The notes beneath the pieces were generated by a model that searched no databases, was not told where the DNA came from, and was given only the letters and a program-made list of their open reading frames with translations. Source: Archivesica marissinica (taxonomy: Eukaryota > Mollusca > Bivalvia > Venerida > Vesicomyidae). Taken from it: 64,000 nt of DNA. Positions 1,495 through 27,645 of this stretch are shown here, in pieces; the stretch's first letter is position 1; every line of letters begins with the position of its first letter. Where the stretch lies: contig CM026400.1 of NCBI GenBank assembly GCA_014843695.1, forward strand, positions 18,056,294-18,120,293, read 5' to 3'. Made by a program: the position numbers and the translations under genes.

Positions 1495-1815
1495 TAGTGC
1501 TCCCCGAGGTAGAACAAATTGGTATATTATCATCAATTAGGGTCTTATGGACCCGAAGCAAGTTCTTGGCATGTTCAATTCGATGATTCAATGTTTTTTA
1601 TTCTTACTTTACTATATGGTATTGCTATTTTCAAAAGTTAAATAAATTGCAGGGTAGGGTAAATATTTTGAGAAATGCATATTTATAACACCTATAACAC
1701 GATACATGTTACATACCGTTGGAAAGGTAATACATTGTTCTAATTGTTTGGCTATTAAATATAATGTATTAATGACGTCGGCGTCATACTGACGTCATAA
1801 TTAACATTTTGCCAT
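1495..1815 (+). repeat. Left TIR of transposon 1
   Basis: It pairs with 5935-6264 in inverse orientation. Shared islands, read inward: CTCCCCGARGTAGAACA, ATTGGTATATT, GTTCTTGGC, GTGATTCAA/GATGATTCAA, GGGTAGGG, ATATTTTG/GTATTTTG, CCGTTGGAA and TGACG..ATGACGTCATA-like motifs. Identity falls inward, so the element is old. Confidence 0.82.
1772..1797. promoter_or_regulatory. CRE/ATF-like palindromes in the left TIR
   Basis: A perfect TGACGTCA palindrome lies at 1790-1797, next to TGACGTCGGCGTCA. The opposite TIR has the related ATGACATCACCATGGCGTCAT. CREB/ATF sites have this core. A role in transposon transcription is only inferred; the gene is read from the opposite end. Confidence 0.35.
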
Positions 1816-2121
1816 CGAAACTGTAAGTGCGCATAATCTTGGTCTCAATACTTCGTTTTATTTTATGTCTCATCACAAAATTACACTATTTAGTGGAAGA
1901 CATGGAGATAATAAAGAGTAGCTACTGTGAAAATGAACACTATATGTTTATACATCAAGCAAGATGAACTTATATGCCGTTGTTAAAGGGGAAGTGTAAT
2001 GCCGATTTTAACATAAAATTACATAAACTCACAATATCTTCACTTTGAACTATTATCAAGTGTCCATGTCATGTACTAGCGTATACAACCATAATATTAT
2101 GTGTTGTACCGATACATCAGA

Positions 2122-2270
2122 CTAATATTGGTCTTCTAGTGCTGCTTGGATGTTGTCCGTTAAACATTCTGCATAGCAACGACAGTTTTCAGTACAATTA
2201 AGTCCGGCCTGAATGCATTGACAGTGCTGCTTATTATCACACATTGAATCTGTGCAAAATAAGTGTGTCA
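2122..2270 (-). other. C-terminal eight-Cys cluster, transposon 1
   Basis: The pattern is C-x4-C-x5-C-x-C-x6-C-x3-C-x-C-x3-C. It is like one half of a CXC (tesmin/TSO1) zinc-binding domain. Transposon 2 has the equivalent cluster at the same C-terminal place. A DNA-binding role is inferred. Confidence 0.6.
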
Positions 2271-2513
2271 TTGCTCTAACTTCAACTGGTCCTGGATCTT
2301 TCTCGAAAAAGACAGCGGCAATAGCACCATCAGGCAGTCTTCTCCAGCCATGGACAATTGGGCTACTGACATCAGGCCGCTGAATGTGACTATGCTTCCG
2401 AATGTATAATTGGTAAGCGCAGCGACGTACGTGCTGTGTGAAAGCGTCCTCGGTTAGTGGTAGATCGGCAGCAGATTTGTCTGTAGATGTAGCAATAACA
2501 TATCTAAGTTCAT

Positions 2514-3017
2514 CTAAATCGGAACACAATTGCCGTTTTCTTTCTTCTTATTCCCATACAGTGTCAATGCATTTAGCCTAGTTATACTCTGCATCTCATT
2601 AGATACCTGTAGCTTGTCACCCAGCAATGATATCGGCTGAATGTCATGCATGTTCTTTGTAGGATTTTTGAATGCTGTTCGTTTGCCAATCCTAAACAAT
2701 GAATGTGTACTATCACATCCCGTTAAGACATGTATTGCAGGTAGGCATTGTGTTAGAGCTGCACCCAAGGTTGACGTCACTTCATTGATTGGGATGAATC
2801 GTTGCCTATTCGTCAATGCCCCTTCGTGACCAGCATGCATGCACGTGTTGATGGGTATATCTCTGTGGCCACAGTAATACAACAACAACACCAATACATC
2901 GGTTTCACCACAGCGCACACTAATGCGAGTATAGTTGACCACAGAATCTATAACATGCAGTAACATTCTTGTGTCAGTTTCCTCGTGTGTACTGTATAAA
3001 TGTTCCAGGTCAAACAC
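2514..3017 (-). pseudogene. Nuclease-like block of transposon 1 gene
   Basis: The longest frame (167 codons) that keeps the putative active site: an EETDTR motif near residue 12, ETDVLVLLLYY near residue 38, and GCDSTHSLFRIGKRTAFK near residue 98. In FEN1/XPG enzymes, acidic residues in comparable EAEAxxA, DxD and GCDY..GIG contexts bind catalytic metals and DNA. Spacing and hydrophobic context fit that scheme, but the match rests on motif reading only. The frame runs on into LNALTLYGNKKK, then shifts into the C-terminal segment at about 2529. Confidence 0.65.
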
Positions 3018-5565
3018 CGACGTTGGTGTTATTTGCTGGTAATTTCACAATTGCCATAGCCACCTGCAAGTATAACGCAACTTCCAACAGGGATATGCAC
3101 TTGTATATGTGCGTCTATGTACTCTGAAATATGAGATGTCAATGAACCTTTGTTCTTTGAATGTTTCAAGAATCGTTTGTAATTTGGAACATTGCGTGTA
3201 CCCAAGACTACATGTGACACAGTTTCACTACCACCAGCTCGTCGGTTACGCTCAGCATTTTTAATCGAGTCAGGCGTGTCGTATCGATCGAATACAATAG
3301 AAGAACACAAGTTACAACTGATAGCCTACCACGCATGGTTCATATAAGTCTATTCATAACAATATTTGCTAATTCATCAAATGTCTTGAACAATCTATCA
3401 TTCAGTGTCTGCAACATGGCCATTCCATCAATAATGTATGCGGTGCTTAGCAATGGTTCTCTGTAGTCTTTCGAATTGTTCCGTCGTCATTGAATAGCGT
3501 AGGGGGTACATCGGCTAACTCATGCTTTATAACAGTTTTCAGATCAACATGTCTTTGTTTTGCAACGGCTAATAATCGCCTGAACAGTACTTCTGAATTG
3601 ATCTTCAGCTGTTTCGATTGCAGTGTGACACTTGGTTTCATATCAGCAAATGTTAATTGTTTAATTTTTGCATCGGGCTTCCAAAAGCTAACTACCTTGT
3701 TGTCGTCACACAACCTCTTCTCAAAGAACTCGACTGAACGTTTATTCCCATTTAACCAGTCAGTGATGTGGCTATAGCTTGAGATGCAACCAAACCAGTG
3801 AATATGTTAATCAACATATCAGGTACATCTTCTAAGTTGAATGGATTTTGCCACTGGTCTGATATAATATCAACTATTTGACGTGAATCCTTTGCATCTC
3901 TTGTACTATTCTTAGCACTCTCGGTCTCATTCTCGTTGGCAATTCCACAAAACGACTTAATGCACGCTGCATACTCTCCAGTTAAATGTCGGGTAATCAG
4001 CCACCTGGTCAAAGCACTTTTGATCAATGTGAACCCGACGACCCCATCACGACTTTTACAGTCCTTATTCACTGACTGTTCCAATGCCTGGTCAGTGGCA
4101 ACATAGATGAATAGATTGTTGTTGGATCGCCGGACCATAAATCCCCATTCAAGAAGATGTTGGTACGCAGGTGGGTTTTTGGATTCCAACATTCTCATCT
4201 CGGTATGATATACAGGTAAGTACTTTGCGTAATTATTACGCCCAGCAGCCCGCAGGATGGGGATTGCTTCTGCAACAGCATTCAGGTGTAATAGAAAATC
4301 TGCGCTGCGATCTTCCCGAAGTAGACGTAACAAAACATGCACTCCTTTTAGAAACTTAAACCAATAGTCAAATGTCTGTGATTGCTGTACCCCTTTACTC
4401 ACAAACTTAGTGATAGCTTCAGAAATTGAATATAGCTTCTTGTTAATAGTGCCAATCAAATCAGTTGACAGATCCTTGTCATGGTAGGTAAATGAACGTT
4501 GCAAATCTTCTAAGTCAAGCCGAAGTGCATTGGACATGAACTCCGTGCCATTGGCAGCAGCCATCCATTTTGTCAAACCTTCAAACAGCAGTGCAGTTAA
4601 AGCTTCCATTGCCAACCTAATTGCTCGAATGCCTCTTGACAGATGTTTTCATTGCAAAAGCATTGTGCACGAACTATCTGCATACACTCCCGACTCAGTC
4701 AAGAATGCATACAGGCCGCCATCAGCATACAGTTTACCGATGCTAGCTATCAATGCCATCAGAAGATGCATCACGCCAAGCCGCATAGTCACCTTGTTTT
4801 GCAACAATGGGGGTTTACTCCATAACTATTCCTGAGCTTTGCTATAAATGGAAAGGTTACACATATGTTCTTGCCCAAGCGATTCTGCCAAACGTACTAT
4901 TTGAATCAAGGCAGTATATATTGTATTCAGATCAGTGGGTTGAGCATGTATAAAAGGTAAGTATCGGATGGTTGTCACAGACTGTGTAGATTCTGACAAT
5001 ATGGCATTAAATGCTGTCCACAAAAGGAATCTCATTTTGTTTGCTTATATACCTAGCAAGACACCAAAGCAAATCCATGGAAACAGCTGTATTGAACGAA
5101 TACAGATATATGTCCATGTTGATGGAGACTGTGGCTGGAACAACTGGGGGCTCGGGGCGATTGCGCGGTTTTCAATATCTCTCAATCAAGTTAGATTCAT
5201 CTATGCCATCATTTTCTGTCAGCGTCTTACTGGTTACTCGTGGTATGCGAATACTTGGCACATGTGTTGTGTTACGCTGATAAATGACAGCCGCCATTGA
5301 GTGGGTTGTGGACTTGCCATCGAGTGTTCCTTCATTCTGATCGAAGTTGTCAATTGCTGCATCTATGGATGAAGAGCCTTCTGTCCCGATCGGGATCAAT
5401 CCTGTAGGATCATACCTGTTATCATCTCCGATCTGGCATTTAGCCAAAGACGACATAAATCGCCTTACTTCATCATAACTCATACAAACCCAAGAGAATG
5501 CAACATGTCAATTAGTGGTTTACTCCCATGGTCATGGTGATTTGGTACAGCTAGTCCAAGTTTTG

Positions 5566-5934
5566 TAATATATTCATGAATTATAATGTAAATTGTTTAA
5601 AGGGAAATGATTTCAACCTTATGTGATGCTGTTCTGTTCTAGAAACAGTTTATTCTCTACATCATATTAAAGGTCTTGGCATCAAAACAAATAGCTTAAT
5701 GTTTTATAAAATAAATTGTAAAATGTTGTTGAATTGTATAAATATATTTCGCATATCACTACAGCATCATGCTACTATATATAGGAAATGTTCACATTTT
5801 AATACTTCTAAGTGATAATAATGTTTCAATATTGATCAAGCGAGTACAATTGATACCCAAATCACTCTTGTTTTGTACAAATTATATATATAAAATATAA
5901 ATTTAGCATCACAAAATATATCTACTTCCGTTTT
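5566..5934. other. AT-rich 5' non-coding part of transposon 1
   Basis: No coding similarity to the N-terminus of the transposon 2 gene is seen here. About 370 bp of AT-rich sequence with TATATA runs separates the last gene remnant from the right TIR. The missing N-terminal part was probably deleted. Confidence 0.5.
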
Positions 5935-6264
5935 TGACGACTACTATTACGTATGACATCACCATGGCGTCATCCTCATATTACTGCAAAATAAATCCTT
6001 GCAACATCAAGTACAACTCATACCCGTTCCAACGGAATATAATATATACGATTTCATTTCTTTGATAGTGGTTTTATTTTCAAAATACTACCCCTACCCC
6101 CTTTTATTTTAGGCGTTTAAAAAACACTACATCATCTTATTAAAAGCTCTATACATGTCTTGAATCACCGTTTTGAATAGGCCAAGAACTATTTTCGAGT
6201 CTATGAAACATTAACCTACAAGAATATACCAATTTCGCTTTGTTCTACTTCGGGGAGCACACTA
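5935..6264 (-). repeat. Right TIR of transposon 1
   Basis: Reverse complement of the left TIR in conserved islands. The end reads CTTCGGGGAGCACACTA. It includes GACATCACCATGGCGTCAT, the counterpart of the CRE-like motifs on the left. Confidence 0.82.
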
Positions 6265-6555
6265 GCAAAATTCCTGGCCCAAACCACTGCTGTTTGTGGA
6301 AGGGGGTAGGCTGAAAGCTGTATCGGATGAATATGCCACATGACGATGTTCAAGCTGTTTTGGCAGCCGTGCTTCTCCGCGCAGTATTTCCGTCACCCAC
6401 TAGAACATCCGAATATCAGCAAACCAGTTGGACGTAATATAATTCGTCACAACCAGTAGGATTCACACCAACAAAGGACAGTTGCAAATTATTTGAAGCC
6501 AGCCACCTAAACAAGTTTAACAAGTGTGGATCTTGTTATAATATTTTGACCATTT

Positions 6556-6850
6556 TGGCAATTATTTGGGCCATCGCCGTGGCCGTGTGGTTACACTCGT
6601 TGACTTCAAATAATGTGCCACTCACCAGGTTCGAATTCCACTAAGGGTGTATAATTCTTTCATGTATTGAAGTTATCCAGCTGGCTTGCGGACGGTCGGT
6701 GGTTCTACCCGGGTGCCAGTCCGTGCCACAGTGAAATACTGCTCGAATGGAATGGGCACGCGGGATCTTCCTCCACCAATAACAGCTGGAGATGTACCAT
6801 CTACCCTAAGCAGTTGGAGCGACTTTGAACCCCAAAACAAACTCAAAACT
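6556..6850 (+). mobile_element. SINE E, tRNA-headed
   Basis: The head has GCCGTGTGGTTACACTCG and a B box GGTTCGAATTCC. The body has TATCCAGCTGGCTTGCGGAC, GGTTCTACCCGGGTGCC and CTTCCTCCACCAATAACAGC. Reverse copies occur at 30690-30940 and 43739-43930. Confidence 0.75.
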
Positions 6851-7136
6851 ATAGCAATTAAGAGTAGCAATCTCAGGAGCAAGTTGTACCAATACGTGTT
6901 CAAAAGACGCCTCTATAAGGCTTACTTATCGAACTAATGTCATTCTACATCAACTTCCCAGTGCAAAAGTATGAACAATGAATGGTTTATAATACAAATT
7001 GTGAGCAGCACATGTATGGCTAATAATTACATCAATCAAGTGTCTGCAGTCTGCAGTAACTTCTCAGTCTAATTTGATACAGGTCTTTTGTGCAGTTTTC
7101 ATTAAACGAGGGTATTGCCGATAATTATGCAGTTTT
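6851..7136. other. Spacer, nothing recognised
   Basis: AT-rich unique sequence between two SINEs. No ORF, repeat or signal of note. Confidence 0.5.
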
Positions 7137-7373
7137 TAGTTTATACACATTTATTTTAGCTCGATTGCGAAGCAAGTTCTTACAACTTATATTAATCACT
7201 CTCGAGACTTCATTCCTGATGGAACCCATCGCCACGAGGGAGAGAGAAGAGGCAACGTGGAATTTAAATGCCTTACCTAAGGGCACATTCGTAACGGCTC
7301 CAACGGGGCTCGAACTCCGGACCTTTCGCACCTGAACCGAACGCGCTACCACTGCGCTATCGCCACTTCCACA
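7137..7373 (-). mobile_element. SINE A, near full length
   Basis: Reverse-strand copy from the tail (AGTTTATACACATTTATTTT) through the body to the head: B box GGGCTCGAACTCC, A box CCACTGCGCTATCGCCAC, and terminal CTTCCAC. The flanks carry similar AAATGCATATTTT and ATGCAGTTTTT, a possible imperfect target duplication. Confidence 0.88.
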
Positions 7374-7559
7374 AATGCATATTTTAAAAAAGCTCCATCG
7401 TTTAACCAGTAATTGTCGACATCAATGCTCAAGTTCTAGTCATCTAGCGTAATAATCGGTTTGTATTCAAGAGTAACACTTTCGATCCTGCATGGTGCAC
7501 GACGACTTATGTTCTCACCAGTTCCACAAGGAAGATGGAACTTCATAAATCGGACTTGA

Positions 7560-10500
7560 ACCCTCATCCACGGGTCCGATGCAACTTCATAAGCCGGGCT
7601 TGAAGCTCATGCACAGGGCGTATGGAACTTTATAGTCAAACATGATAGCTCATCCAACAAGCCAATCCAACGTTATAAGCCGGGCTTGAAGGCCCATCCA
7701 ACGAGCCAATCCAACGTTATAAGCCGGGCTTGAAGGCCCATCCAACGAGCCAATCCAACGTTATAAGCCGGACTTGAAGGCCCATCCAACGAGCCAATCC
7801 AACTTTATAAGCCTGACTTGAAGGCTCATCCAACGAGCCAATCCAACGTTATAAGCCGGGCATGAAAGCTCATCCAACGTTATAAGCCGGGCTTGAAGGC
7901 TCATCCAACGAGCCAATCTAACGTTATAAGCCGGGCATGAAAGCTCATACATCAAGCCAATCCAACGTTATAAGCCTGGCATGAAAGCTCATCCAACGTT
8001 ATAAGCCGGGCTTGAAGGCTCATCCAACGAGCCAATCCAACGTTATAAGCCGGGCATGAAAGCTCATCCAACGAGCCAATCCACCGTTATAAGCCGGACT
8101 TGAAGGCTCATCCAACGAGCCAATCCAACGTTATAAGCCGGACTTGAAGGCTCATCCAACGAGCCAATCCAACGTTATAAGCCGGGCTTGAAGGCCCATC
8201 CAACGAGCAAATCCAACGTTATAATCCGGGCTTGAAGCTCATGCACAGGGCGTATGGAACTTTATAGTCGGACATGATAGCTCATCCAACAAGCCAATCC
8301 AACGTTATAAGCCGGGCTTGAAGGCCCATCCAACGAGCCAATCCAACGTTATAAGCCGGACTTGAAGGCCCATCCAATGAGCCAATCCAACGTTATAAGC
8401 CGGGCATGAAAGCTCATCCAACGAGCCAATCCAACGTTATAAGCCTGGCATGAAAGCTCATCCAACGTTATAAGCCGGGCTTGAAGGCTCATCCAACGAG
8501 CCAATCCAACGTTATAAGCCGGGCATGAAAGCTCATCCAACGAGCCAATCCACCGTTATAAGCCGGACTTGAAGGCTCATCCAACGAGCCAATCCAACGT
8601 TATAAGCCGGACTTGAAGGCTCATCCAACGAGCCAATCCAACGTTATAAGCCGGGCTTGAAGGCCCATCCAACGAGCCAATCCAACGTTATAAGCCGGGC
8701 TTGAAGGCTCATCCAACGAGCCAATCCAACGTTATAAGCCTGGCATGAAAGCTCATACATCGAGCCAATCCAACGTTATAAGCCGGGCATGAAAGCTCAT
8801 CCATCGAGCCAATCCAACGTTATAAGCCGGACTTGAAGGCTCATCCAACGAGCCAATCCAACGTTATAAGCCTGGCATGAAAGCTCATCCAACGTTATAA
8901 GCCGGGCTTGAAGGCTCATCCAACGAGCCAATCCAACGTTATAAGCCTGGCATGAAAGCTCATCCAACGTTATAAGCCGGGCTTGAAAGCTCATCCAACG
9001 AGCCAATCCACCGTTATAAGCCGGACTTGAAGGCTCATCCAACGAGCCAATCCAACGTTATAAGCCGGACTTGAAGGCTCATCCAACGAGCCAATCCAAC
9101 GTTATAAGCCGGGCTTGAAGGCCCATCCAACGAGCAAATCCAACGTTATAATCCGGGCTTGAAGCTCATGCACAGGGCGTATGGAACTTTATAGTCGGAC
9201 ATGATAGCTCATCCAACAAGCCAATCCAACGTTATAAGCCGGGCTTGAAGGCCCATCCAACGAGCCAATCCAACGTTATAAGCCGGACTTGAAGGCCCAT
9301 CCAATGAGCCAATCCAACGTTATAAGCCGGGCATGAAAGCTCATCCAACGAGCCAATCCAACGTTATAAGCCTGGCATGAAAGCTCATCCAACGTTATAA
9401 GCCGGGCTTGAAGGCTCATCCAACGAGCCAATCCAACGTTATAAGCCGGGCATGAAAGCTCATCCAACGAGCCAATCCACCGTTATAAGCCGGACTTGAA
9501 GGCTCATCCAACGAGCCAATCCAACGTTATAAGCCGGACTTGAAGGCTCATCCAACGAGCCAATCCAACGTTATAAGCCGGGCTTGAAGGCCCATCCAAC
9601 GAGCCAATCCAACGTTATAAGCCGGGATTGAAGGCTCATCCAACGAGCCAATCCAACGTTATAAGCCTGGCATGAAAGCTCATACATCGAGCCAATCCAA
9701 CGTTATAAGCCGGGCATGAAAGCTCATCCATCGAGCCAATCCAACGTTATAAGCCGGACTTGAAGGCTCATCCAACGAGCCAATCCAACGTTATAAGCCT
9801 GGCATGAAAGCTCATCCAACGTTATAAGCCGGGCTTGAAGGCTCATCCAACGAGCCAATCCAACGTTATAAGCCTGGCATGAAAGCTCATCCAACGTTAT
9901 AAGCCGGGCTTGAAAGCTCATCCAACGAGCCAATCCACCGTTATAAGCCGGACTTGAAGGCTCATCCAACGAGCCAATCCAACGTTATAAGCCGGACTTG
10001 AAGGCTCATCCAACGAGCCAATCCAACGTTATAAGCCGGGCTTGAAGGCCCATCCAACGAGCAAATCCAACGTTATAATCCGGGCTTGAAGCTCATGCAC
10101 AGGGCGTATGGAACTTTATAGTCGGACATGATAGCTCATCCAACAAGCCAATCCAACGTTATAAGCCGGGCTTGAAGGCCCATCCAACGAGCCAATCCAA
10201 CGTTATAAGCCGGACTTGAAGGCCCATCCAATGAGCCAATCCAACGTTATAAGCCGGGCATGAAAGCTCATCCAACGAGCCAATCCAACGTTATAAGCCT
10301 GGCATGAAAGCTCATCCAACGTTATAAGCCGGGCTTGAAGGCTCATCCAACGAGCCAATCCAACGTTATAAGCCGGGCATGAAAGCTCATCCAACGAGCC
10401 AATCCACCGTTATAAGCCGGACTTGAAGGCTCATCCAACGAGCCAATCCAACGTTATAAGCCGGACTTGAAGGCTCATCCAACGAGCCAATCCAACGTTA

Positions 10501-11130
10501 TAAGCCGGGCTTGAAGGCCCATCCAACGAGCCAATCCAACGTTATAAGCCGGGCTTGAAGGCTCATCCAACGAGCCAATCCAACGTTATAAGCCTGGCAT
10601 GAAAGCTCATACATCGAGCCAATCCAACGTTATAAGCCGGGCATGAAAGCTCATCCATCGAGCCAATCCAACGTTATAAGCCGGACTTGAAGGCTCATCC
10701 AACGAGCCAATCCAACGTTATAAGCCGGGCATGAAAGCTCATCCAACAAGCCAATCCAACGTTATAAGCCGGACATGAAAGCTCATCCATCGAGCCAATC
10801 CAACATTATAAGCCGGACTTGAAGGCTCATCCAACGAGCCAATCCAACGTTATAAGCCGGGCTTGAAGGCTCATCCAACGAGCCAATCCAACGTTATATG
10901 CCGGGCATGAAAGCTCATCCAACGAGCCAATCCAACGTTATAAGCCGGACCTGAAAGCTTATCCATCGAGCCAATCCAACGTTATAAGCCGGGCATGAAA
11001 GCTCATACATCGAGCCAATGCAACGTTATAAGCCGGACTTGAAGGCTCATCCATCGAGCCAATCCAACGTTATAAGCCGACATGAAAGCCCATCCATCGG
11101 GTCAATGCAACTTTATAATCCGCGCATGAA
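7560..11130. repeat. Satellite array, 44-bp unit
   Basis: About 3.5 kb of a 44-bp monomer containing CCAATCCAACGTTATAAGCC and GGCTTGAAGGCTCATCCAACG. A frequent 31-bp variant lacks 13 bp between two ATCCAACG direct repeats. Variants alternate GGGCTTGAAGG, GGGCATGAAAG and GGACTTGAAGG. Short reverse-strand open frames inside are products of the repeat. Confidence 0.97.
8231..10725. repeat. 927-bp higher-order repeat in the 44-bp satellite
   Basis: The marker CTTGAAGCTCATGCACAGGG lies at 8231, 9158 and 10085, exactly 927 bp apart, and whole blocks repeat almost letter for letter. The third block diverges at about 10725. An earlier marker at 7599 gives a shorter 632-bp partial block. This shows recent block duplication. 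Confidence 0.95.
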
Positions 11131-11369
11131 AGAACTTGCGATTATGCCCCAACTTTGTAGATATAAATAAACCGCACGTGACATGATCAAATGAAAAACA
11201 ACATCCGATTCTATTGCAGTAAAAGCATTTTCTGATATACCTATTTCCGAGAACCTGGTTCGAGCGCATGCGCACTACAACATTACCTGACAGAAGACTC
11301 GCCGGGCCATATCTTCATAAAACACACCTACAATTATCCTCGCGTCCTGTCTCTGAAAAGTATAATACA

Positions 11370-11535
11370 TTTTACACGTTAAAATACACGCTAAAATACA
11401 CGTTAAATGCACGCTAAAATACACGTTAAAATATGCGTTAAAATACACGTTAAAATACACGTTAAAATACACATTAAATGCACGTTAAAATACAGGTTAA
11501 AATACACGTTAAAATACACGGTAAAATACAAGAGT
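11370..11535. repeat. 12-bp minisatellite
   Basis: About 13 copies of GTTAAAATACAC with C/T and length variants. Followed by a (GTT)n tract at about 11550-11575. The open frames across it are repeat artefacts. Confidence 0.93.
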
Positions 11536-11666
11536 AGTTATTTTAACAAATGTTGTTGTTGTTGTTGTTGTTGTTTGTATGTGTGTTGTGGGATGTTTAT
11601 TTCTGACATACACATACTTATGTACATAGTCATAGTTATCTAACACATTTGTTTTAATCATATGTT

Positions 11667-11957
11667 TGTGTATTTTACGTTTATTTATCGTCGCTACTGG
11701 TTGCTCATATGAGCGACGCCTCCTGAAGAGATTAGTAATTTTAGATTATTGGAGGATAGTGTAATGATACAGACAGAGACGCATTCCAGAGTCTCCTCTG
11801 GTTCTTTTACGTGCACGGTGTAAAGCACAGACACGAGACCTCGGTTTAAAGTCCCAACTGAAAGACTGTTAATTTGATCTGGGTCAGACATGGGATCGAA
11901 CCTGCAATCCCTGGATTACCAGTCCAACGTGTTAACCACTAGACTACAGATCCGTCT
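11667..11957 (-). mobile_element. SINE B, full length
   Basis: Reverse copy: 3' end TTTTACGTTTATTTATCGTC, body with GAGACCTCGGTTTAAAG, and head with GGATTACCAGTCCAACG and ACAGATCCGTCTG. The head keeps the B-box GGGATCGAACCTGC. Confidence 0.9.
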
Positions 11958-12690
11958 GTTAATCATATTTTATTGCATTCATTCTATATATACAATGTAC
12001 AGAACAAAACAAATGAACACATTTGTATAATTATGCATAGTATATACGATTTATGTCATTCGTTTGCACAATACTTGTCAATAAATGTTGAAGCAAATTG
12101 GTTGGGCCACAAGTTTTTAACAACATTAGTTACGGCCCTCCACCTAACAAATAGTACATAATAATAAATGTATCAAACTGTGGCATGCTCCATTCTATTA
12201 ACCCTTTCCCTCATAGAATCACCTCTCGACGCCATTACCAATACGACATACATTGACAATGTAGTAGCCAAACCAATGCTCATAATAAAGGCCATAATCT
12301 CATGTAGTCCCAGTAATATCTATGGAGGTGGGATAGATATGGCAACAACTTATCTACTGCATGATGGCTAAATGGCTGTCGTTTGTATGTATATATAATA
12401 CAAATAAACCTAAATATCTATGAAGGAAAGGGTTAACTATAGCTCTATTTGGAAATAAATTCCGTCCAACTAAAATAGTTTTTGAGTTTAGAATAAATAG
12501 CATAGAAATAAATAATATACTTAACTTGACATAGAAATAAAATGCGATTAAATCCATTTTCATTCTGTATACAATTTATATGTACTGCACATTATGAACG
12601 AATAAATATGTTTAAACCAACTGCGATTGCTACATGTGTACGGGGATACAGTATATTGGGGGGGGGTGTATATCAGATATATATATGATA
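11958..12690. other. Spacer, no gene
   Basis: AT-rich unique sequence with a G10 run at about 12658-12667 and a TATATA stretch at 12675-12690. Open frames up to 69 codons show no family features. Confidence 0.55.
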
Positions 12691-12694
12691 TAGA

Positions 12695-12850: not shown

Positions 12851-12887
12851 GGTTATGGGTTAAATATGTTTTATGTTAACATTGTTG

Positions 12888-16420: not shown

Positions 16421-16465
16421 TCGTTCGTTCGTTCGTTCGTTCGTTCGTTCGTTCGTTCGTTCGTT
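16421..16465. repeat. (TTCG)n microsatellite
   Basis: About 11 TTCG units placed exactly where the 3' part of the adjacent SINE C should begin. Confidence 0.95.
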
Positions 16466-16637: not shown

Positions 16638-16754
16638 AATGTACTTGACCATTGTTGAACAATATATAATCTCATTTTGACTATGTTACTCTTGTTTTCA
16701 TTAGACTCCTCGTAGCTCCATTTCTCCGTAACAATCGTAGCAGCAATGAAATTA

Positions 16755-17250: not shown

Positions 17251-17289
17251 TGGCATAAAAACAGGAATAGGAATATATCTTTAACTTTG

Positions 17290-17690
17290 GAATTAGACTA
17301 GCTGCAGACATATAGCAGTTTGCACACTACTTTGGAATCAGACTAGCTGCAGACATATAGCAGTTGGCACATTACTTTGGAATTAGACTAGCTGCAGACA
17401 TATAGCAGTTTGCACATTACTTTGAAATTAGACTAGCTGCAGACATATAGCAGTTTGCACATACTTTGGAATTAGACTAGCTGCAGACATATAGCAGTAT
17501 GCACATTACTTTGGAATTAGACTAGCTGCAGACATATAGCAGTGTGCACACTACTTTGGAATTAGACTAGCTGCAGACATATAGCAGTTTGCACATTACT
17601 TTGGAATTAGACTAACTGCAGACATATAGCAGTTTGCATATTACTTTGGAATTAGACTAGCAGCAGACATATAGCAGTTTGCACATTACG
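17290..17690. repeat. 45-bp minisatellite, 9 copies
   Basis: The unit holds TTTGGAATTAGACTAGCTGC and AGACATATAGCAGTTTGCAC. It ends abruptly at the SINE A tail at 17692. Confidence 0.95.
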
Positions 17691-17691
17691 T

Positions 17692-18985
17692 TTAGCTCGA
17701 TTGCGAAACTAGTTATTATAGCATTTCTTTAATCTCTGTCTATCTCTCTCGACCTTATTCCTGAAGTGATCAATCGCCAGGACGGAGAGAGAAAGATATG
17801 AGAGAGAAAGAGAGAGTGAGAGGAGAGAGAGGGGAGGTAGAGAGAGAAAGAGAGAGTGAGAGGAGAGAGAGAGGAGGTAGAGAGAGAAAGAGAGAGTGAG
17901 AGGAGAGAGAGGGGAGGTAGAGAGAGAGATAGAGAGAGAGAGAGAGGGAGAAAGAGGAGAGATAAGAGAGGGGGAGAGAGATATAGGAGAGAGAGGGAGA
18001 TAGCGGAAAGAGAGAGCGGAGTGAGAGAGAGGAGATATATGAGAGATAGCGATGAGAGAGGGAGAGGTAGGAGAGAGGGAGATATATATATATATATATA
18101 GAGAGAGAGGTATAAGGAGATAGAGAGAGGAGAGAGGGAGAGGGGGGAGAGAGAAGAGAGATAGAGAGCTAGTAGAGAGAGTGAGATATATATATAGAGA
18201 GAGATAGAGATGATAAAAAGAGGACGGGAGAGGGAGGTAGATAGAGAGAGGGAGGTAGATAGATATATAGAGAAGGAGTTAGATATATAGAGAGGAGAGT
18301 GAGTGGATATATAGAGAGAGAGAGGGAGATATCTAGAGAGAGGGAGATATACAGGAGAGAGAGGGAGATAGAGGATAGAGATGAGAGAGAGGGAGATAGC
18401 GGAAAGAGAGAGCGGAAGATAGAGAGAGGGAGATAGAGGAGAGATAGACGGGAGAGAACAAGGGAGGATAGAGAGGAGATAGTGGGAGAGAGAAATGGGG
18501 GAGATAGAGAGAGAGCGAGAGGGAGGGAGGGAGGGAGGGAGGGAGAGGGAGACATATATATATAGTGAGAAAGTAGAGATAGGGAGAGAGGGATATATAG
18601 AGGGGAGTGATAGAGAGAGGGGGGAGAGAGAAATATGTGAGAGAGAAGGAGAGAGAAGGAGAGAGATAGAGAGGAGAGAGGGGAGCGAGATAGAGAGCAA
18701 AGAGATAGAGGGGAGAGAGTGGAGGAATAGAGGGTATATATAGAGAGAGAGGAAGAGAGAGAAAGGGAGATATGGAGAGATAGGGGAGAGATAAAGAAAG
18801 AAAGGGAGAGAGGGAGAGTTAGAGTGGAGGGGAGAGATAGAGAGGATACATAGAGAGAGGGAGAGAGGGAAAGGGGGAGATAGAGGGAGAAATAGTGAGG
18901 GGAGAGGAGGGGAGATATGGGGAGAGAGAAAGAGGTGGGAGAGAGAGCAAATGCAATGTGGATTTAAGTGTATTTCCAATGGTTC
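17692..18985 (-). mobile_element. SINE A split by a 1.1-kb purine tract
   Basis: The left part (17692-17795) reads TTAGCTCGATTGCGAAAC, TCTCGACCTTATTCCTGA and CAATCGCCAGGACGGAGAG. The right part (about 18930-18985) reads GAGAGAGCAAATGCAATGTG then GATTTAAGTG. Together they match the SINE A order of tail, body GAGGGAGAGAGAAGAGG and GCAACGTGGAATTTAA. The GA-rich insert sits precisely in the SINE's own GAGAGAG stretch. Confidence 0.75.
17796..18945. repeat. 1.15-kb GA-rich purine tract
   Basis: Nearly pure GAGAGA with irregular GGGAGA, GATA and TATATA interruptions on the + strand. It gives a 424-codon reverse frame of Leu/Ser/Pro repeats that is not a gene. Such long polypurine runs can form triplex (H-DNA). 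Confidence 0.97.
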
Positions 18986-19786
18986 CCAGTGAGTAGAGAA
19001 CATTTTATTTTGTTCTTTGTCAGGAACATTGGGGTTTGGGAATTATTGTATAAACGGCTTACCATAAACAATGTACATGCCTGTATAGACAAATATTGCA
19101 ATGACAAAACCATAGCTCTTTCGAGAATAATAAATGAATCATTGATGTAGATTGCATATAGGTACAAGGGCGGTTCCTTTGATAGATAACAATTGGGAAA
19201 TCACAGGTCATTAACGACCGATTTATGGACGAGATAAATCGTATTTACGACACACAAACATTTATTACAATCAGTAGGGACATTGTTAAGCAGTATTGCA
19301 ACCTGGAACCACATTATATTGGTGTACATAGTTCCCACGGCCTGTGAAAATAGTCAAAAACACTGATAAGATCTTATCTTGGCAGCCATTTTGACTGGCA
19401 AATTTTATTAACCGCAATTTCAGGATTTTACTAGTAATTCTTTAAGTGCAATAACTTTATTAATTCTGGTTTCTTAATATAACATTTGGTATGATTTTAA
19501 AGGTATTGAAATGTACTTTGTAAATATTAATTTATTTTTTGACAATGATTTATGGATTATAAATTATATGAACTTAACTTGCACCTATTTTTGAAAGTCT
19601 ATATTGAAATATTAATAATATACAGGTAAATTATTATTTATTCGTTGTTGATACGAAATTTGTGAAATGATACAAAGCATATGTCCGTTGAGAGCTTTCC
19701 AACAATAAATATTTTTTGAAGAAAACAAAATTAAGTTTATTATATATAATATCTGATAAACTTTGCCAATGAAAATGGGGTATCCA
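18986..19786. other. Spacer, no gene
   Basis: AT-rich unique sequence without repeats or coding signal that I can recognise. Confidence 0.5.
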
Positions 19787-20508
19787 GACAAAATGCCACA
19801 GGACAATGCCACGGGACATAATGCCACAGGACAAAATAATGCTGGACATATTGCCACTCTTTTTTTATAAATAAATAAAGAAACCACAGCCATTCTTAAT
19901 TGCAGTTTGTACTTCATTAATTAAAGGAAACCACATACAGTTTTTACTAGTTTATCATATCAGCTCAATGTTAATTACTCACAGAAGCCCCTGTGATGTC
20001 TATACCAACACTCTGGTAATTTAATTGAAGTCACATCTAAATGTACGGTCTTCCTATTTCTACTTTGCAGTGTTAATTATTATTATTATTAAACATGCTA
20101 AATTAGTATTAATTAGTATTATACTTGGGGAATGCTCAGTATTAAAATGAAACTTAATAAATAAAAATCTTACTTAAGTACAAGGGATGGGTGTACAGGT
20201 CCCCCTTTAAGCTACCTTCATTATTTATGTATTAAACGTTGGATAGGCTTCAGATAGGCACACCCTATTAATATATCATCATATTAGTTATTACTGTAAA
20301 TAGTGATAATTTTTCCATTTTTGTAGTGTGACATTGCTGTAGATATGGATATATACTGGGGAAAAAAAATGATTTGAAATAGTGTGGCATTTTGTCTTTT
20401 ATTTCGTATTGTGACATTTTGTCCTGTGGCATTTTGTCCTGTGGCATTATGTCCTAGTCAATTTTGTGGCATTATGTCCTGCGGCATTTTGTCCTGTGGA
20501 ATTTTGTC
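19787..20508. mobile_element. Putative non-autonomous DNA element with inverted GACAAAATGCCAC repeats
   Basis: The left end is a short tandem of GACAAAATGCCACAGGACA-type units (19787-19857). The right end (20385-20508) is the same in reverse, for example GTGGCATTTTGTCCTGTGG. The ~525 bp between are AT-rich with no gene. The outer ends GACAAAATGCCACAGG and CCTGTGGAATTTTGTC are inverted copies. The target duplication is unclear. Confidence 0.65.
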
Positions 20509-20619
20509 CCGGATTTGAAAATGGCAGCCACAGTAGGAATGGTGACGTCACACGGGAACTGTGTCATATCATAAATTATAGAGTCTGTTCCGTGGGGAGT
20601 ATCACGGGTGTAGCGGGAG

Positions 20620-20644
20620 CCCCAATAATAATAATAATATTCAC

Positions 20645-20693
<49 letters not shown>

Positions 20694-20695
20694 TG
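20620..20695. repeat. (ATA)n microsatellite
   Basis: About 22 uninterrupted AAT/ATA units after a short TATTCAC interruption. Confidence 0.95.
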
Positions 20696-20774
20696 TGTGC
20701 TGTTATGATGTGTGGGGCATTTGTAGTACATTAAACAAAGATTATTAATTACTACTGATATATGTTGACGAGAA

Positions 20775-21125
20775 GACACCGGTCAATTACTGCCCCTGAA
20801 TGCTCCCTATAAAATATGTGGGTACTCTATAAAGTTGTTTCCTCTGTTTTTATCGGTGTTTCCTTTGCACACCATGCTAGCAATGTTCTTCCACTTTCTC
20901 ATATACGTATTATGTTACTATATCTCGACAGATATCCTACAGTATATCCAATGGGTAAACAGTCTGTACATTTTTTTATCGATTAAACCATGACTTGGAT
21001 AAAATCGCATGTATCATAACGCAACATCTTGTTATGGAACAACTGTAAAAACAAAGGATTCCAACTGAAAGGACCGCTATACATTTAGAGATTTATTCGG
21101 ATAAAGAAATTAGCTTTTTTTGTTG
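20775..21125 (+). mobile_element. Dispersed element Q, copy 1
   Basis: About 350 bp that is the near mirror of 46366-46715. Shared: TTACTGCCCCTGAATGCTCC, GTTGTTTCCTCTGTTTTTAT, CTTCCACTTTCTCAT, GACAGATATCC and AGGACCGCTATACATTTAG. A short relative is at 28248-28375. The other end in copy 2 is CTGCCAAGGGAGGTAATAG. Confidence 0.8.
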
Positions 21126-21429
21126 GCTTTTTTTTGTAAACCGGATCCGGATGTTGTACCGATGATTCAACTGGCTATAGTAGTGTTCCCAGAATGCATC
21201 ATATATTCTCAGAAATGACTTGCTAAATATAGTGTTATGAATCTCCCTGGTTAGTGTTAATTATATTTCAATTATCTGTCACAATCCATCAGTAAGTGAT
21301 TAGTCTCCGGCGCATCATTATCTAAAATACCAATATTGAAAGATACACAGAACACGTGCGTCACGGTTTTTAATCACTGCTGTGGGAATGGTGGTTGTTG
21401 TTTTTTTTGGCATCAGTCGTTGCATATAT

Positions 21430-21790
21430 CAGTCTGTTTGTCAGTGTATGTGTGTCAGTCTGTATTAACGTGATAGCTCAGAAAGTTGTGGGTGTATTTT
21501 GATGAAACTGTGTGGATATATCGAGGGTTTGTCCAGGGGGGAGTGATTCGATTTTGGGAAAGATCGGTCAAGGTATGTGGTCATCGCGGTCAGCCACGTG
21601 TCCGTATTCATGCATGTGTCCGAACTCAAGCATTTGTTTTGTGTCAAAATACCAGTGCGGGGGAAGGCATCTCTCCGAGTTTGTTTTTGTTTATGTGTTG
21701 TTTTGTTTATTGGGGCGGGGGGTGGATGGCAATGTCGGCTACAGCTACACATATGTGCGATTCTCTAGCAGTAATCTGCGGATGAAAACA
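21430..21790 (+). mobile_element. Dispersed element R, copy 1
   Basis: It shares the order GTTGTGG, GATGAAACT, ATATATCGAGG, ATTTTGGGA, GCATGTGTCCGAACTCAAGC, ATACCAGTG, TCTCCGAGTTTGTTT, ATTGGGGCGGG and GCTACAGCTACACA with 30003-30345. Open frames are not conserved between the copies. Confidence 0.78.
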
Positions 21791-21811
21791 CTAGGTAGCG
21801 TATACACATCT

Positions 21812-21936
21812 ATTTTATATTAATCATTCTCGAGACCTCATTCCTGGTGGAATCCATCGCCATGAGGGAGAGAGAAGAGGCAACGTGGAATTTAAATGCC
21901 TTGCCTAAGGATACAATCGTAACAGCTCCAGCGGGG
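21812..21936 (-). mobile_element. SINE A fragment
   Basis: Reverse copy from ATATTAATCATTCTCGAGACC to GTAACAGCTCCAGCGGGG. It ends at the B-box region and is followed by SINE E sequence. Confidence 0.85.
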
Positions 21937-22010
21937 TAGCCGGGTAGAACCATTGAATTTCCACAAGCCAGTTGGATAGCTTCACGTCCGGAAGACCTAG
22001 TCTACATTAA
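21937..22010 (-). mobile_element. SINE E fragment
   Basis: GCCGGGTAGAACCATTGAAT, CCACAAGCCAGTTGGATAGC. It matches the body of the reverse SINE E copy at 30690-30940. Confidence 0.7.
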
Positions 22011-22044
22011 ACTTGATAAACTAGAGAAACAAGCTCTCTTTTCA

Positions 22045-22115
22045 CCAATGCAACCCGAGTTCGATCCGTGGATCGCTTGGAACGGGACGTATATGAGATG
22101 GTATGGTGATCACAA
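22045..22115 (+). mobile_element. SINE C head fragment
   Basis: CACCAATGCAACCCGAGTTC and GAGATGGTATGGTGATCAC are SINE C head and early body. Confidence 0.7.
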
Positions 22116-22119
22116 GGTG

Positions 22120-22350
22120 GAAGTAGTGATAACCCCGTAATAGCGCGTTCGCTTCAGGAGCGAAACGCCCGGAGTTCGAGCCCCACTGGAGTCGTTACGA
22201 TTGTGCCATTAGTCAATGCATTTAAAGTCCACATGCTTCTTCAATCTCCCTAGTGGCGATGGACTCCACGAGGAATGAGGTCTCGAGAGAGTGATAAATA
22301 TAAGTTGTAATAACTTGTTTCGCATTCGAGCTAAAATAAAATTATATAAT
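22120..22350 (+). mobile_element. SINE A, diverged
   Basis: Plus copy: TAATAGCGCGTTCGCTTCAG, B box GTTCGAGCCCCACTGG, body GGCGATGGACTCCACGAGG and tail TTTCGCATTCGAGC. Confidence 0.87.
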
Positions 22351-22383
22351 TTAAATCACAAGGTCAGACAGGTGGTTTTAAAG

Positions 22384-22735
22384 TTTAAACTTTATTTATT
22401 TTATAACGATTGCGAAGCAAGTTTTGGTTTAATCATATTCATTCCACTATATACATTCACAAAACAACACATGTACACACAATCAAAGAATAGGAAAGGA
22501 TCAAAACGGAAGCAGAGCTTATATAGTTTTAACAACACTAATCACTCTCGTTGGCGCGGATGAAAGCGTATATTTGGTCATTCGTGTGGGAGGAAACCGG
22601 AGTACCCGGAGAAAACCCACATGTCCGATCTGGCGACCACCGTATCATCTCACATACTTCCCGGTCCGAGGATCGAACCCGGGTTGTATTGGCATGAAGC
22701 AGCGTGCTAACCACTGTGCTAATCGGACTGCCAAA
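22384..22735 (-). mobile_element. SINE C with ~110-bp insertion
   Basis: Reverse copy whose tail (AACTTTATTTATTTTATAAC, GCGAAGCAAGTTTT) is parted from ACACTAATCACTCTCG by about 110 bp of foreign sequence at roughly 22424-22533. The rest is typical up to the A-box CACTGTGCTAATCGGAC. Confidence 0.85.
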
Positions 22736-22961
22736 TTCAATTTGTTCGGAAGTGTCACTTTAATCGGACAGCCTAAATATGTCGGTTATGTAAAAAAAAC
22801 TCATGTAATGTAACGTATATAATTATACCTTTAGATTTCTCACAGCGTTTGTAGGGTCGGTAAGGAAGTTTTGTCTCACAGCAACATCTATACCCGCCGC
22901 CTTTACACGTTCCTCCAAGTCTTCAACTGTCTGAAATACACAATAACTCAAATGGTGGACC

Positions 22962-23023
22962 TTCTGTTGTTTTTTATCGTCGCTACCGGTATATGAGCGA
23001 CGCCTCCTCGAGAGATTGGTCAT
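22962..23023 (-). mobile_element. SINE B 3' fragment
   Basis: TTTTTTATCGTCGCTACCGG and GAGCGACGCCTCC are the reversed SINE B 3' end. It lies head-on to the plus SINE B that follows, making inverted GAGCGACGCCTCC arms. Confidence 0.8.
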
Positions 23024-23274
23024 ACAGACGGATATGTAGTCCAGTGGTAACACGCTGGACTGGTTATCCAGGGATCGCAGGTTCGATCCACCGTCTGACC
23101 CTAATAAAATTAACATTCTTTCAGATTGGACTTTAATCCGAGGTCTCGTGTCAGTGCTTTACACCGTGTGCGTAAAAGAACCAGGGGAGACTCTGGAATG
23201 GGTCTCTGTCTGTATCATTGCACTACCGTCCAACAATCTAAAATGACTAATCTCTTTAGGAGGCGTCGCTCATA

Positions 23275-23453
23275 TAGTCCGGCAGAACCTGGGTTGGACC
23301 TGGATTTGTTGTCTTAAGTTTTTTTTTGGACTGATTTAGGTGGACTAATACATAGAGTTCCAAAATCTGTCGCATGACCCCCCGTCACCCTTGAGCATTT
23401 TCCGCCATCTTGAATTCAAAATGGCCGCCATGCACATTTTATGAAAAATGCAG
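23275..23453 (+). repeat. Left TIR of transposon 2
   Basis: Inverted partner of 27463-27645. It ends inward at GAAAAATGCAG. It includes GCCATCTTGAATTCAAAATG and GGCCGCCATG, which look like two divergent YY1-type (AAnATGGC) sites. Confidence 0.88.
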
Positions 23454-24033
23454 TTACTGATCAATACAGTTTACTTTCTGAGAACAGAGTGCCATTTTAG
23501 CAACATTATAATGAGGGCAAGCTCCAAAATGTTCAAGATACTATTAATAATGCATTTTCTGTACATAACAATGTTGGTACAATGAAATCAATATGGTCGC
23601 CATCATCAAATAATATTGATATTTAATGGAAATGTATATATGATCCTTCAATTACCTTTACCTCTATATTAATTTGTGACTTGTTTAATATATTTTACAA
23701 ATATAATGCATGAATAATGCATCTATAGCTTTATTTTTAAGAATATGTCAATAATAAATGTAATATATATAAACAAGCACGTGTTGTGCAAATATTTCCA
23801 TTCAATTATGTATAGATTATTTCCCCAAAAAAGTCCTAAAGTTAGAACTGCATTTTGTTTCTTTGTAACTTTAAAACCCTATAAACTAAACCTAATATAC
23901 TTTGTTTGTGTGCCTGCATGTAATCAGAGTAACCATGGAAGATGTAGTATAGTATTAGTAGTAGTAGCAATACCTTCCATTCCATAAAAGGCAGCAGATT
24001 ACAGGACAGCTAACAACTGGTATAAAAACAGTC
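23454..24033. other. AT-rich 5' leader of transposon 2
   Basis: Between the left TIR and the first gene remnant. No coding signal. A TATA-like run AATATATTTTACAAATATAAT is at about 23688-23708. The promoter is not identifiable. Confidence 0.45.
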
Positions 24034-26734
24034 ATGGCAAGTAAAGACGTCTGTTTCTTCCAGTGGATGTTTAACGGCGAAAATAAGGAATAGCAGTTCA
24101 TTGAATGTGGAGTTGCCCGCATAATAAGCATCATTAAGTGTAGTAAAATTTACAATGATGGTATTCATGAACAACTTGAAGAAGATCTACAACAAAACAG
24201 TGAATTTAAAATAAAGTGCCATAAAAACTGTCCATCAACTTATACCTCACCAACACAAACAAAAAGGTATATCAAGAGACAAGCATCAGAAACACATGGT
24301 TCACATGCTCCTGCAAAACAGAATGGGCAGTCTAGTAGTGTAAGCTGTGACTTTAAACTGCAGTGTCTATTCTGTGCAAAAGAATGCCTTCTAAAGAAAG
24401 ACCCTACAAATCCAACTAGTTGGCGAGAAGCATACTTGTTCCGTCAGATTCTGAAGAAAAGGTGACAAAAAACAATTAAACAGTCTATTTTGGATATTTG
24501 TGACAAAAGAAATGATGAGTGGGCTATGGAGGTCAGAACACGTCTTGAAGGAGCAATCAGTGATCTGCATGAATCATGGTATCATGTAGACCAAATTTTT
24601 ATGTCAGAAAAGTCAGTAGTATCAGCTGTGAATTTGCAAACAATCCCAAATGAAGTGGATAGTGCTCTTCAGTCTTTGATTAAAAACATTGGTGAAGACT
24701 TTTGGTGATGATCTGTTAGTGCTGTCCTCACCTGGTATAGCTAGCATAATTGTGTTCCGAAGCAAAGCCTCCAATGTTCTAAAGTTAGTTGATGAGGAGG
24801 AGGAGGATATGGATGCTGCCATAACTAAAGTTTGTAAACAAATCAAAAGTGATGTGAAGGGTATACCAGTAGACAAAGAAAAGTATGATGCCCATATCAA
24901 CTGTGAAATGGGATTGGACTCCATGAGTTATACACTTATTGAACTGCTAGCAAGTTTATCTCCAAAGCTAGACAGGACACTTCTAGCTATATTGTTCAGT
25001 AATTAGTAGCTCTCTACATAACCATCCTACATCCTTACAGTTATCCCTTGGAGTTTTAATTCGAAGTTCAAAAGAGCTTGTGAGCAAAATGCATGATTAT
25101 GCAATAACCTGTTCTTATGATGAAGTTCTCCGTTTCAAGAAGTCGACAGCATTCGCAGCAGTGGAGCAAATGGTCGCAGATAACTTTGATACTGAGATAT
25201 CATCTCAAAATGGGAAATTGTCAACTCACTCATTAGCAGTACTGTTAACACAGGCAGAGCAGACTGTAGACATGATCGACAAGCAACAGAAAATCAAACG
25301 CATTAAGAAGAGAGTAATGTATGATCCCATTAACTTTGAAACAACTGTTCACAGATATAATGGACCAAAGAAGCCTGATGTGCATGGACCAAAGACGCCT
25401 GATGTGCACAACACTACACAATTGTGGGTTGATGTTGTAATCAAACCAGTGTTTATTATGATGATGTTTATCAGAGCAGAAAGAGAAGGAGATTGGTTGC
25501 TCCACCCAGATGTTTACAGACTTATGGTGCCATATTTCTTCGCAGCTGGGCATGTGTACTATGCACGGTATGGGCTATACTACCTCAGGTCCATGGAACA
25601 TCTACCTGATAATGTGCTGAAACCATTCTGAAAGGACAGCTGTTCCTGGTCTCTGGAATGGTATCTGGAGTGACATGTTCATAGAAACTACTTTTATGAG
25701 GTATGGGCATGGACAGTGAGGAATTATTGGTATCACACTTAAGCCAGAAACACTTAAAACCTGGGCATTAAGTCTCCACATATGCAGTCAACTGGCGGTA
25801 GACCTGTCTGACATGATTGATGGAGGAAAAGTTAATGTTCAAAGTTGTCACAAGGAGGAAAACAAAGGAAGGATTGCAAGTGATACAAAAGCCAGGGAAG
25901 GGATAAGGAAGAAACTTCAGCTCTGCATTGACCCCCCTTGATCCAACAAAGCATCCAGATGAGATAGTGAACATCATTAGTGGCAGACTAGGCTCATCAT
26001 CAGTTAATGTGCATGATGCTGTTGAAATAGGGACAACTCTGATGAAAGAGTATGAAAAGACATGCCCAGAAGGTTTTCATAAAACAATTCATAAGAAAGT
26101 AACAACCATGACAGCATCAAATAAACATATATGAGTGGATGATGAGAAAGTCTTTGATACAAGCCTTATCTACTCAAGAGTGATAGGGCTTCATGCCAGT
26201 TCCCGCAAAACAGACATCAATGGTGGGTCAATTGAATGTACCTTTATCTGCAGTAATAAAACAGGCTACACAATTTATGGCTACATGTTATGGACAGTCA
26301 GAATGTGATACCATGTCAACTGCACGCATCAATGTTTGGGCTGCTAAGACCTGGCAAAGGGTACGTACACCTCAACACCCAAACTCTGCTCCCTTCCTCC
26401 TACAACGCAGGCATTTGAGGAGAATGTCAAACGGGCACATCACCAAGCTTGCACATGGAGATCTCTGGAAAAGTTGGAGTCACCTAGACTTGACACAGAG
26501 AAATACGGATGGAAGAAAGATGAAACAAACAAAACGTTATTGCCAGTAACTGTTCCGGAGAACGTACCCCTTGCACCTGCTAACATATTGCGCCTTATTA
26601 AGTGTGGGTGTGAAAGTCAGGCTCCTTGTAGTTCTTCCAGGTGTGGCTGCATCAATGCAAAGCTTGCATGTACTTTATTCTGTGCCTGCCATGGAGTGAG
26701 TTGCTTCAATCCACATACCATTGACAATGTTTGA
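24034..26734 (+). pseudogene. Broken transposon protein, N-terminal Cys/His region to Cys-rich C-terminus
   Basis: A candidate ATG at 24034 opens a frame that runs to about 24700 with two in-frame stops (24091 TAG, 24463 TGA). It encodes a Cys/His-rich start (CHKNCPSTY, CLFCAKEC). The reading then shifts through 24689-25006, 25080-25631 (LRFKKSTA after SYDEV; FAAGHVYYARYGLYYLRSM), 25632-25900 (VPGLWNGIWSDMFIETTFMR), 25928-26134 (VHDAVEIGTTLMKEYEKTCP), 26135-26220 (DTSLIYSRVIGLHASSR), then ATCYGQSECDTMSTARINVW and LPPTTQAFEENVKRAH, ending with the Cys cluster. The segment that holds the nuclease motifs in transposon 1 is missing between about 26210 and 26240. At least two stops, four frameshifts and one internal deletion make it inactive. 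The function as transposase is inferred from its place inside TIRs. Confidence 0.88.
26590..26734 (+). other. C-terminal Cys cluster, transposon 2
   Basis: C-x-C-x5-C-x4-C-x-C-x6-C-x3-C-x-C-x4-C, nine cysteines including CGCINAKLACTLFCACHG. It is close to a CXC/tesmin half-domain and to the cluster at 2122-2270. Zinc or DNA binding is inferred. Confidence 0.65.
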
Positions 26735-26771
26735 TTATACTAAATAATAGAGTTGTTTCTTAATGCTCATG

Positions 26772-27432
26772 TGTATGTACCCACACGAAACTTGCGGTCG
26801 CAGAACAATGCTACTACACTCGTGGTGCCAAGAGGCCGCAAAGTCATGTACGGTGACAGAAGCTTTGCTACTGCTGCACCAAGACTATGGAATGCTCTCC
26901 CGGCAGGAATCAGAGAGTCTAGATCAGTATCTAGTCTTAAGACATCACTTAAAACACACTTGTTCTTACAAATACACGGACACTAAACTGGTGTGCATAT
27001 AGAAGTGTTTTGACAACTTCAACATTAAGAATGTTTGAAGTAGTTTTATCTTATTTATATTGTTTTAACAAACAATCCTTAAATCTTTTAATATATATAT
27101 CTGGTATACATATTCTTTAACTGCATATCTTAGTCTTATGGCGTATGCCTTTTAGTTCTTGCTTTGAAGTCCACCCACGCTTTCCCTCTTCTGCCATGGG
27201 GACAGGGTCTCTGGCAGGCGAGGGTGGGCCTGGTATGCGACCCTTACATTATTTTTTTTAAACCTCATTGACTAAGTTAGTTAGGATACATTTTTACATT
27301 ACTTTAAGTTATACTATTGTTTTATTACATGTTTTACTGTTTTTACCTGCAGACTCTTATTGTAAAGCACCTTTGAACGTATCTGATATGAAAAGGGTGC
27401 TATATAAATGTGGTATAATAATAATAATAAAA
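26772..27432 (+). mobile_element. 5'-truncated LINE with reverse-transcriptase ORF C-terminus
   Basis: The first 70 codons are the typical end of a non-LTR retrotransposon ORF2: RNLRSQNN, VPRGRKVMYGDRSFATAAPR, LWNALPAGIRESRSVSSLKT, LKTHLF. The 3' UTR ends with a hairpin (AGCACCTTT / AAAGGGTGCT at about 27366-27403), then ATATAAATG and an (ATA)n tail, as in L2/CR1-type elements. ATG(C/T)TCATG at 26763-26771 and 27433-27441 is a likely 9-bp target duplication. It lies between the transposon 2 gene and right TIR. Confidence 0.85.
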
Positions 27433-27462
27433 ATGTTCATGAATTTCATGTGTGTTATACAT

Positions 27463-27645
27463 CTGCATTTCATTTTGATGGCGGCCATTTTGAAATCAAG
27501 ATGGCCGACAATGCTCAAGCATGACATGATGTCATGCGACAGTTTATGAAACTACATACCCTACTCTAACATAATAAGCAATAAAAAAAAACTTAAGACA
27601 ACAAAACCAGGTCCAGCTTATATCTTGGGTTTGGCTGCCGGACTA
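27463..27645 (-). repeat. Right TIR of transposon 2
   Basis: Mirror of the left TIR; outer end GGCTGCCGGACTA. It has an extra segment of ~20 bp near the end (CCAGCTTATATCTTGGG) and a longer stretch around ATAATAAGC compared with the left. Confidence 0.88.

Follow-up and report, generated by a model that had tools for sequence, protein, structure and literature searches.

Two dead DNA transposons with a transposase-nuclease gene, probably of the Academ superfamily, in the bivalve Archivesica marissinica

The 64,000-nucleotide stretch of Archivesica marissinica DNA considered here (contig CM026400.1; in its full length, the window) contains two elements, E1 and E2, which we interpret as dead, internally deleted copies of two large cut-and-paste DNA transposon families from the nuclease-bearing lineage (AcademX) of the Academ superfamily. 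We put the probability of this reading at about 0.85. The fit to AcademX was judged on three features, namely a DDE (Asp-Asp-Glu) core, an XPG-type nuclease and a duplication of 3-4 bp; all three were found, in support of the Academ-type element suggested in a preliminary description of the window. Both families are shown to be DNA transposons in this genome by the ends that their copies share, by the number of those copies, by 3-bp target duplications and by an empty site. Each full-length element would encode one protein of about 1450-1600 residues with, in order, an N-terminal Cys/His region, the DDE core, the XPG-type nuclease and a C-terminal Cys cluster resembling CXC. Elements of this kind are already known, and their members stand unlabelled in animal gene sets.

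The genome searched comprises 1.54 Gb in 2808 contigs, and further copies sharing the ends of the two elements were found in it. An end of E1 (306 bases inside the boundary first proposed) is present at 40 places including the window, the others being 95-96% identical to it (181 first-look candidates, 40 scored). For E2, a query of 249 bases spanning the left end gave 41 matches (71 first-look candidates, 40 scored), amounting to 32 left ends including the window's own when eight opposite ends (79-80%) and one 27-bp piece are left out. Twenty E1 loci were fetched, chosen as the top DNA hits for one end rather than sampled at random, and both ends are present in 17 of them (the exceptions being L012, L023 and L027). 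A perfect 3-bp duplication flanks 15 of these 17 copies, all except L010 and L021, and is found in L018 in spite of its mutated ends; none of the 17 has a 4-bp duplication. The duplicated bases vary in sequence, and when left and right flanks from different copies were paired as a control for chance, three bases matched in 16 of 272 pairings. Duplications of the E2 family were read by eye, without a script. Six of the 11 copies have one of 3 bp (the window copy, C8, C10, C7, C4 and L056) and another, C6, one of 4 bp, ACAA, its left end being short by a base or two; the four with no duplication (C14, C5, C9 and L057) all have terminal bases missing at one end at least. Two copies that are 98.6% alike sit on different contigs.

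Six E1 copies (L010, L015, L016, L017, L019 and L021) have in common a net deletion of about 68 bp in the coding region, and the five that were compared are 98.3-99.2% alike. Four of the six (L015, L016, L017 and L019) have perfect duplications, each different. The simplest inference is that these copies moved after their gene was broken and were therefore moved by an intact relative, and that broken copies like those of the window moved in trans in the same way. Among the E2-type copies, two of 5.4 kb on C5 and C9 (L037, L038, L049 and L050) show 99.98% identity; to their left, 800 bp or more of flanking sequence is the same in both, whereas their right flanks diverge exactly at the element end. 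A further family (L051, L052 and L053) has the left end TAGTGCAGCGGCAACAGGGG, a length of about 6.4-6.5 kb, 98.5-99.4% likeness and differing left flanks; L053 has no 3-bp duplication.

Within the window (Table 1), repeat and protein matches confirm the presence of two broken genes from a single family, each enclosed by long inverted repeats. The TAGT end and the span given for E2 in the preliminary description are right, whereas the boundary it set for E1 at TAGTGCTCC (1495) was rejected: all 20 fetched relatives keep homology for 37-44 bp further out, as far as the family termini TAGTGCAGCGGT and ACCACTGCTCTA at the two ends. The outermost terminal bases of the window copy are mutated, so that E1 extends over 1451-6294 and has no duplication. 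At about 5561-5567 it is missing a stretch of about 1.73 kb found in the full-length copy L054, and its match to protein P0001 begins at residue 435, the N-terminus being absent. E2 is without the middle of the transposase core and without the XPG part, because its match to P0040 skips residues 503-717 (at about 25382/25413) and 991-1292 (at about 26217). Hence only E1 keeps the XPG-like part that had been ascribed to both. Of the sequence blocks listed as common, both elements do contain SYDEV and the Cys cluster at the C-terminus, but VFDRYD is found in E1 only and IETTFMR in E2 only, E1 carrying DQALEQ at the latter position. The best phmmer match of the E2 read-through to 39 E1-type relatives has an E value of 3e-40, and the best match of the E1 read-through to relatives one of 0; no further match to P0001 or P0040 was found in the rest of the window at E<=1e-4.

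The one clean target duplication, ATA at E2, is as first described and is backed by an empty-site paralogue. When the flanks of E2 are joined they match a second copy of the same short interspersed element (SINE)-like repeat, within 11601-11960, over 122 of 139 columns. The gap at the join reflects a join made one base too far, and two more gaps lie away from it. L028, a copy of the E1 type, occupies the identical CATA/TG point of this repeat as E2 does, both with ATA duplications, and a site preference is possible. The full-length relative L037 lacks about 670 bp that are present within E2 (26766-27433) and end in an ATA-rich tail; their translation resembles the 3' end of a reverse transcriptase gene of a long interspersed element (LINE).

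Table 1. Features of elements E1 and E2 in the window (window coordinates)
Feature	Position	Strand	Basis or remark
Element E1, degenerate copy of TAGTGCAGCGGT...ACCACTGCTCTA transposon, no target duplication	1451..6294	- (gene strand)	ends defined by 20 relatives
E1 left terminal inverted repeat; outermost bases of family terminus TAGTGCAGCGGT mutated	1451..1591	+	inverted-repeat match and relatives
E1 right terminal inverted repeat	6160..6294	-	inverted-repeat match and relatives
E1 gene remnant, several frames, P0001 residues 435-1584	2176..5560	-	protein match
E1 transposase (RNase H/DDE) part	3662..5486	-	IDNFDQ (D1), DQALEQ (D..E) kept; TAD motif of D2 damaged
E1 XPG/PIN-like nuclease part	2526..3447	-	IDGM, VFDRYD, HEETD, ETD, GCD
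E1 Cys cluster at the C-terminus, weakly matching tesmin/TSO1 CXC	2164..2262	-	TCR E 0.027, below cut-off
SINE-like repeat copy without insert, empty-site paralogue of E2 target	11655..11934	-	
E2 target duplication ATA, left copy	23272..23274	+	
Element E2, TAGTCC...GGACTA, internally deleted copy	23275..27645	+	ends and empty site
E2 left terminal inverted repeat	23275..23431	+	inverted-repeat match
E2 gene remnant, P0040 residues 5-502, 718-990, 1293-1454	24052..26710	+	protein match
E2 C-terminal Cys cluster, CXC-like	26600..26711	+	MSL2-CXC E 0.06 and TCR E 0.44, neither reaching the cut-off
E2 right terminal inverted repeat	27478..27645	-	inverted-repeat match
E2 target duplication ATA, right copy	27646..27648	+	

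Protein searches of the genome revealed relatives with long frames. With P0001 (6084 first-look candidates, 29 scored) a stop-free frame of 1595 residues covering residues 5-1586 was found, together with two frames of 1601 residues with one stop each. P0040 (5571 first-look candidates, 32 scored) gave five frames of 1459-1527 codons spanning residues 3 to at least 1454, four of them stop-free and one listed with a single TGA; in both searches the first-look counts are not counts of confirmed copies. The 1595-codon frame lies in L054, which with L055 makes up an E1-type element of about 6.6 kb between E1 ends. Of ten motif patterns looked for in this frame, all but GDGGL were found, and the flanks of L054, ACA and ATA, form no perfect duplication. 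The N-terminal 434 residues were seen in none of the 20 fetched E1 loci at tblastn E<=1; L054 came from the protein search. The E2 type is represented by L056, about 5.4 kb long, with a 1527-codon frame; it has TAGTCCGGCAG ends and is flanked by TGT to the left and right. The XPG part is present in L054 as in the window E1, and deleted in E2.

The core of the protein is predicted to be an RNase H-fold DDE transposase with an all-helical insertion, its acidic residues being the D of DNFD, the D of TxDxxxY and the E of DxxxE, which are near-invariant among the aligned relatives. Foldseek returned nothing for the DDE model at E<=0.001; in a second look with VIA, which is confined to re-ranking the candidates of Foldseek itself, the model resembles Hermes (hAT) and P. 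The nuclease part has the predicted PIN-like fold of the XPG/FEN/EXO1 type with an acidic cluster, and in an alignment of 100 relatives most retain its acids, the GCD column being left uncounted because the reference row P0115 does not match the pattern. The XPG nuclease named in the preliminary description is therefore supported by predicted fold and conserved acids, even though E2 itself has lost it. Its identity to XPG, FEN1 and EXO1 is about 8-16%, and here it is fused behind a transposase. A family profile searched against PDB sequences gave seven matches at E<=10, the best of them, EXO1 (E 0.38), not significant alone; the alignment pairs the VFD and GCD motifs with EXO1. Between L056 and a 533-codon piece of L037, whose frame is broken elsewhere, change in the nuclease part is mostly silent (proportions of silent and replacement differences, pS 0.84 and pN 0.20). 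This contrast shows an excess of silent change, and was used alone because silent sites are saturated in distant pairs; the close pair L056/L057, with a ratio of replacement to silent rates (dN/dS) of 0.53, reveals no strong constraint. The three-dimensional models are evidence for a P/hAT/RAG-like core plus a conserved nuclease of the FEN family in an Academ-type transposase of this sort. The only Pfam match at E<=0.01 in six relatives was DUF6589 (PF20231) in P0136 (E 8.6e-06); E2 matches it at E 0.0045. Both matches are weak and below the curated family cut-off. They cover the segment leading to the last acidic residue, and DUF6589 is a precomputed domain in two of the 120 relatives shown; the literature searches made here turned up no paper that names it, and one that names AcademX. 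The spacing of the C-terminal cysteines is, by eye, similar to that of tesmin/TSO1 CXC, but the CXC family was matched at E<=0.01 in none of six relatives and both window fragments missed the TCR cut-off.

The nuclease of Academ elements is of the XPG type. According to PMC10045372, which says only nuclease, AcademX likewise combines a DDE transposase and a nuclease with duplications of 3 or 4 bp, and AcademH, in the same superfamily, a helicase with duplications of 9 or 10 bp. One difference from AcademX is that both window copies are deletion derivatives. AcademH is not indicated: duplications are 3 bp, no helicase Pfam match was seen in six relatives (four of 1458-1615 residues), and a profile search that scored 7992 candidates, limited to proteins no longer than roughly 1.75 times the 1379-residue query, gave no helicase-bearing relative among 96. 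A RecQ helicase in Academ is mentioned in PMC3627910. Academ elements are reported in PMC10294476 to be abundant in bivalves, with 100 of them curated and a mean length of 5565 bp, which is similar to the lengths found here. It is unlikely, given this similarity and the presence of all three testable AcademX features, that the two families form a separate DDE superfamily that gained its XPG nuclease independently and resembles Academ only in architecture and short duplication, even if nothing stronger than the DUF6589 matches ties them to any named family. The resemblance of the core to Hermes and P might instead suggest an hAT element, or one of CACTA/EnSpm or Kolobok. CACTA/EnSpm elements have CACTA or CACTG termini, Kolobok duplicates TTAA and hAT elements duplicate 8 bp, whereas the ends here are TAGTGCAG and TAGTCCGG, beginning with TAG, and the duplications are 3 bp and, in E1-type copies, of varied sequence. 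Ends and duplications thus contradict membership of CACTA/EnSpm, Kolobok or hAT, none of which is known to us to carry an XPG nuclease, and we consider it very improbable. The hAT (Hermes), P element and RAG1/Transib transposases are not known to have an XPG domain, and their duplication lengths are other. Scarcely credible is the view that the genes are host genes of an uncharacterised animal XPG-like family adjoining inverted repeats by chance. Relatives in animal gene sets are uncharacterised or misnamed, as that view would have it, but tens of copies that share their ends, differ in their flanks and carry 3-bp duplications, the pair of 98.6% alike copies on different contigs and the empty site speak against it, and in this genome it is rejected on the duplications.

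In the mechanism that we propose, the DDE core would cleave at the TAG ends and insert them at a target cut with a 3-bp stagger, the FEN-type nuclease fused to it would trim branched or flap DNA arising from excision or strand transfer, and the Cys regions would bind DNA. It may even be, though we hold this doubtfully, that transposase and nuclease form one enzyme whose two active sites differ in fold: the DDE site would cut and join the transferred strand, the FEN/EXO1-type site would make or resolve the second-strand cut or the branched intermediate, and excision would therefore need neither a hairpin nor a host nuclease. Such a two-nuclease route of transposition would lie concealed in animal proteins that carry the label uncharacterised. 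It is unlikely that the XPG part was captured from the host as a mere passenger, with no role in transposition. Deleted copies such as E2 did move without it, and L056/L057 shows no strong constraint; yet deleted copies can be moved in trans, the nuclease occurs in both protein types with its acids widely kept, and L056 and L037 differ there mostly by silent change. The three-dimensional models make the role of the conserved FEN-family nuclease directly testable.

That the whole protein family is transposon-encoded, as was first proposed, is supported within this genome, and there are weak and indirect indications that it may extend beyond it. In 19 of 39 relatives the longest contig is 5.0-7.9 kb, about the length of an element, although data of this type often contain short contigs. 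Public gene models with this transposase (P0020, P0025 and P0034-P0036) are named Beta-glucanase in fish or Ankyrin-1 in a sea spider, and one of them carries PF10683, a hAT/Hermes DNA-binding domain. Many unnamed animal proteins, a large family with a few members that bear wrong names in gene sets, can now be assigned to a physical entity.

Elsewhere in the window, repeat-rich stretches at 42149-43193, 47947-48880, 50474-50929 and 58019-62176 consist of units that give long open frames, and several of the stretches do so in two or more reading frames or on each of the two strands. These frames are probably not genes, the stretches resembling minisatellite arrays.
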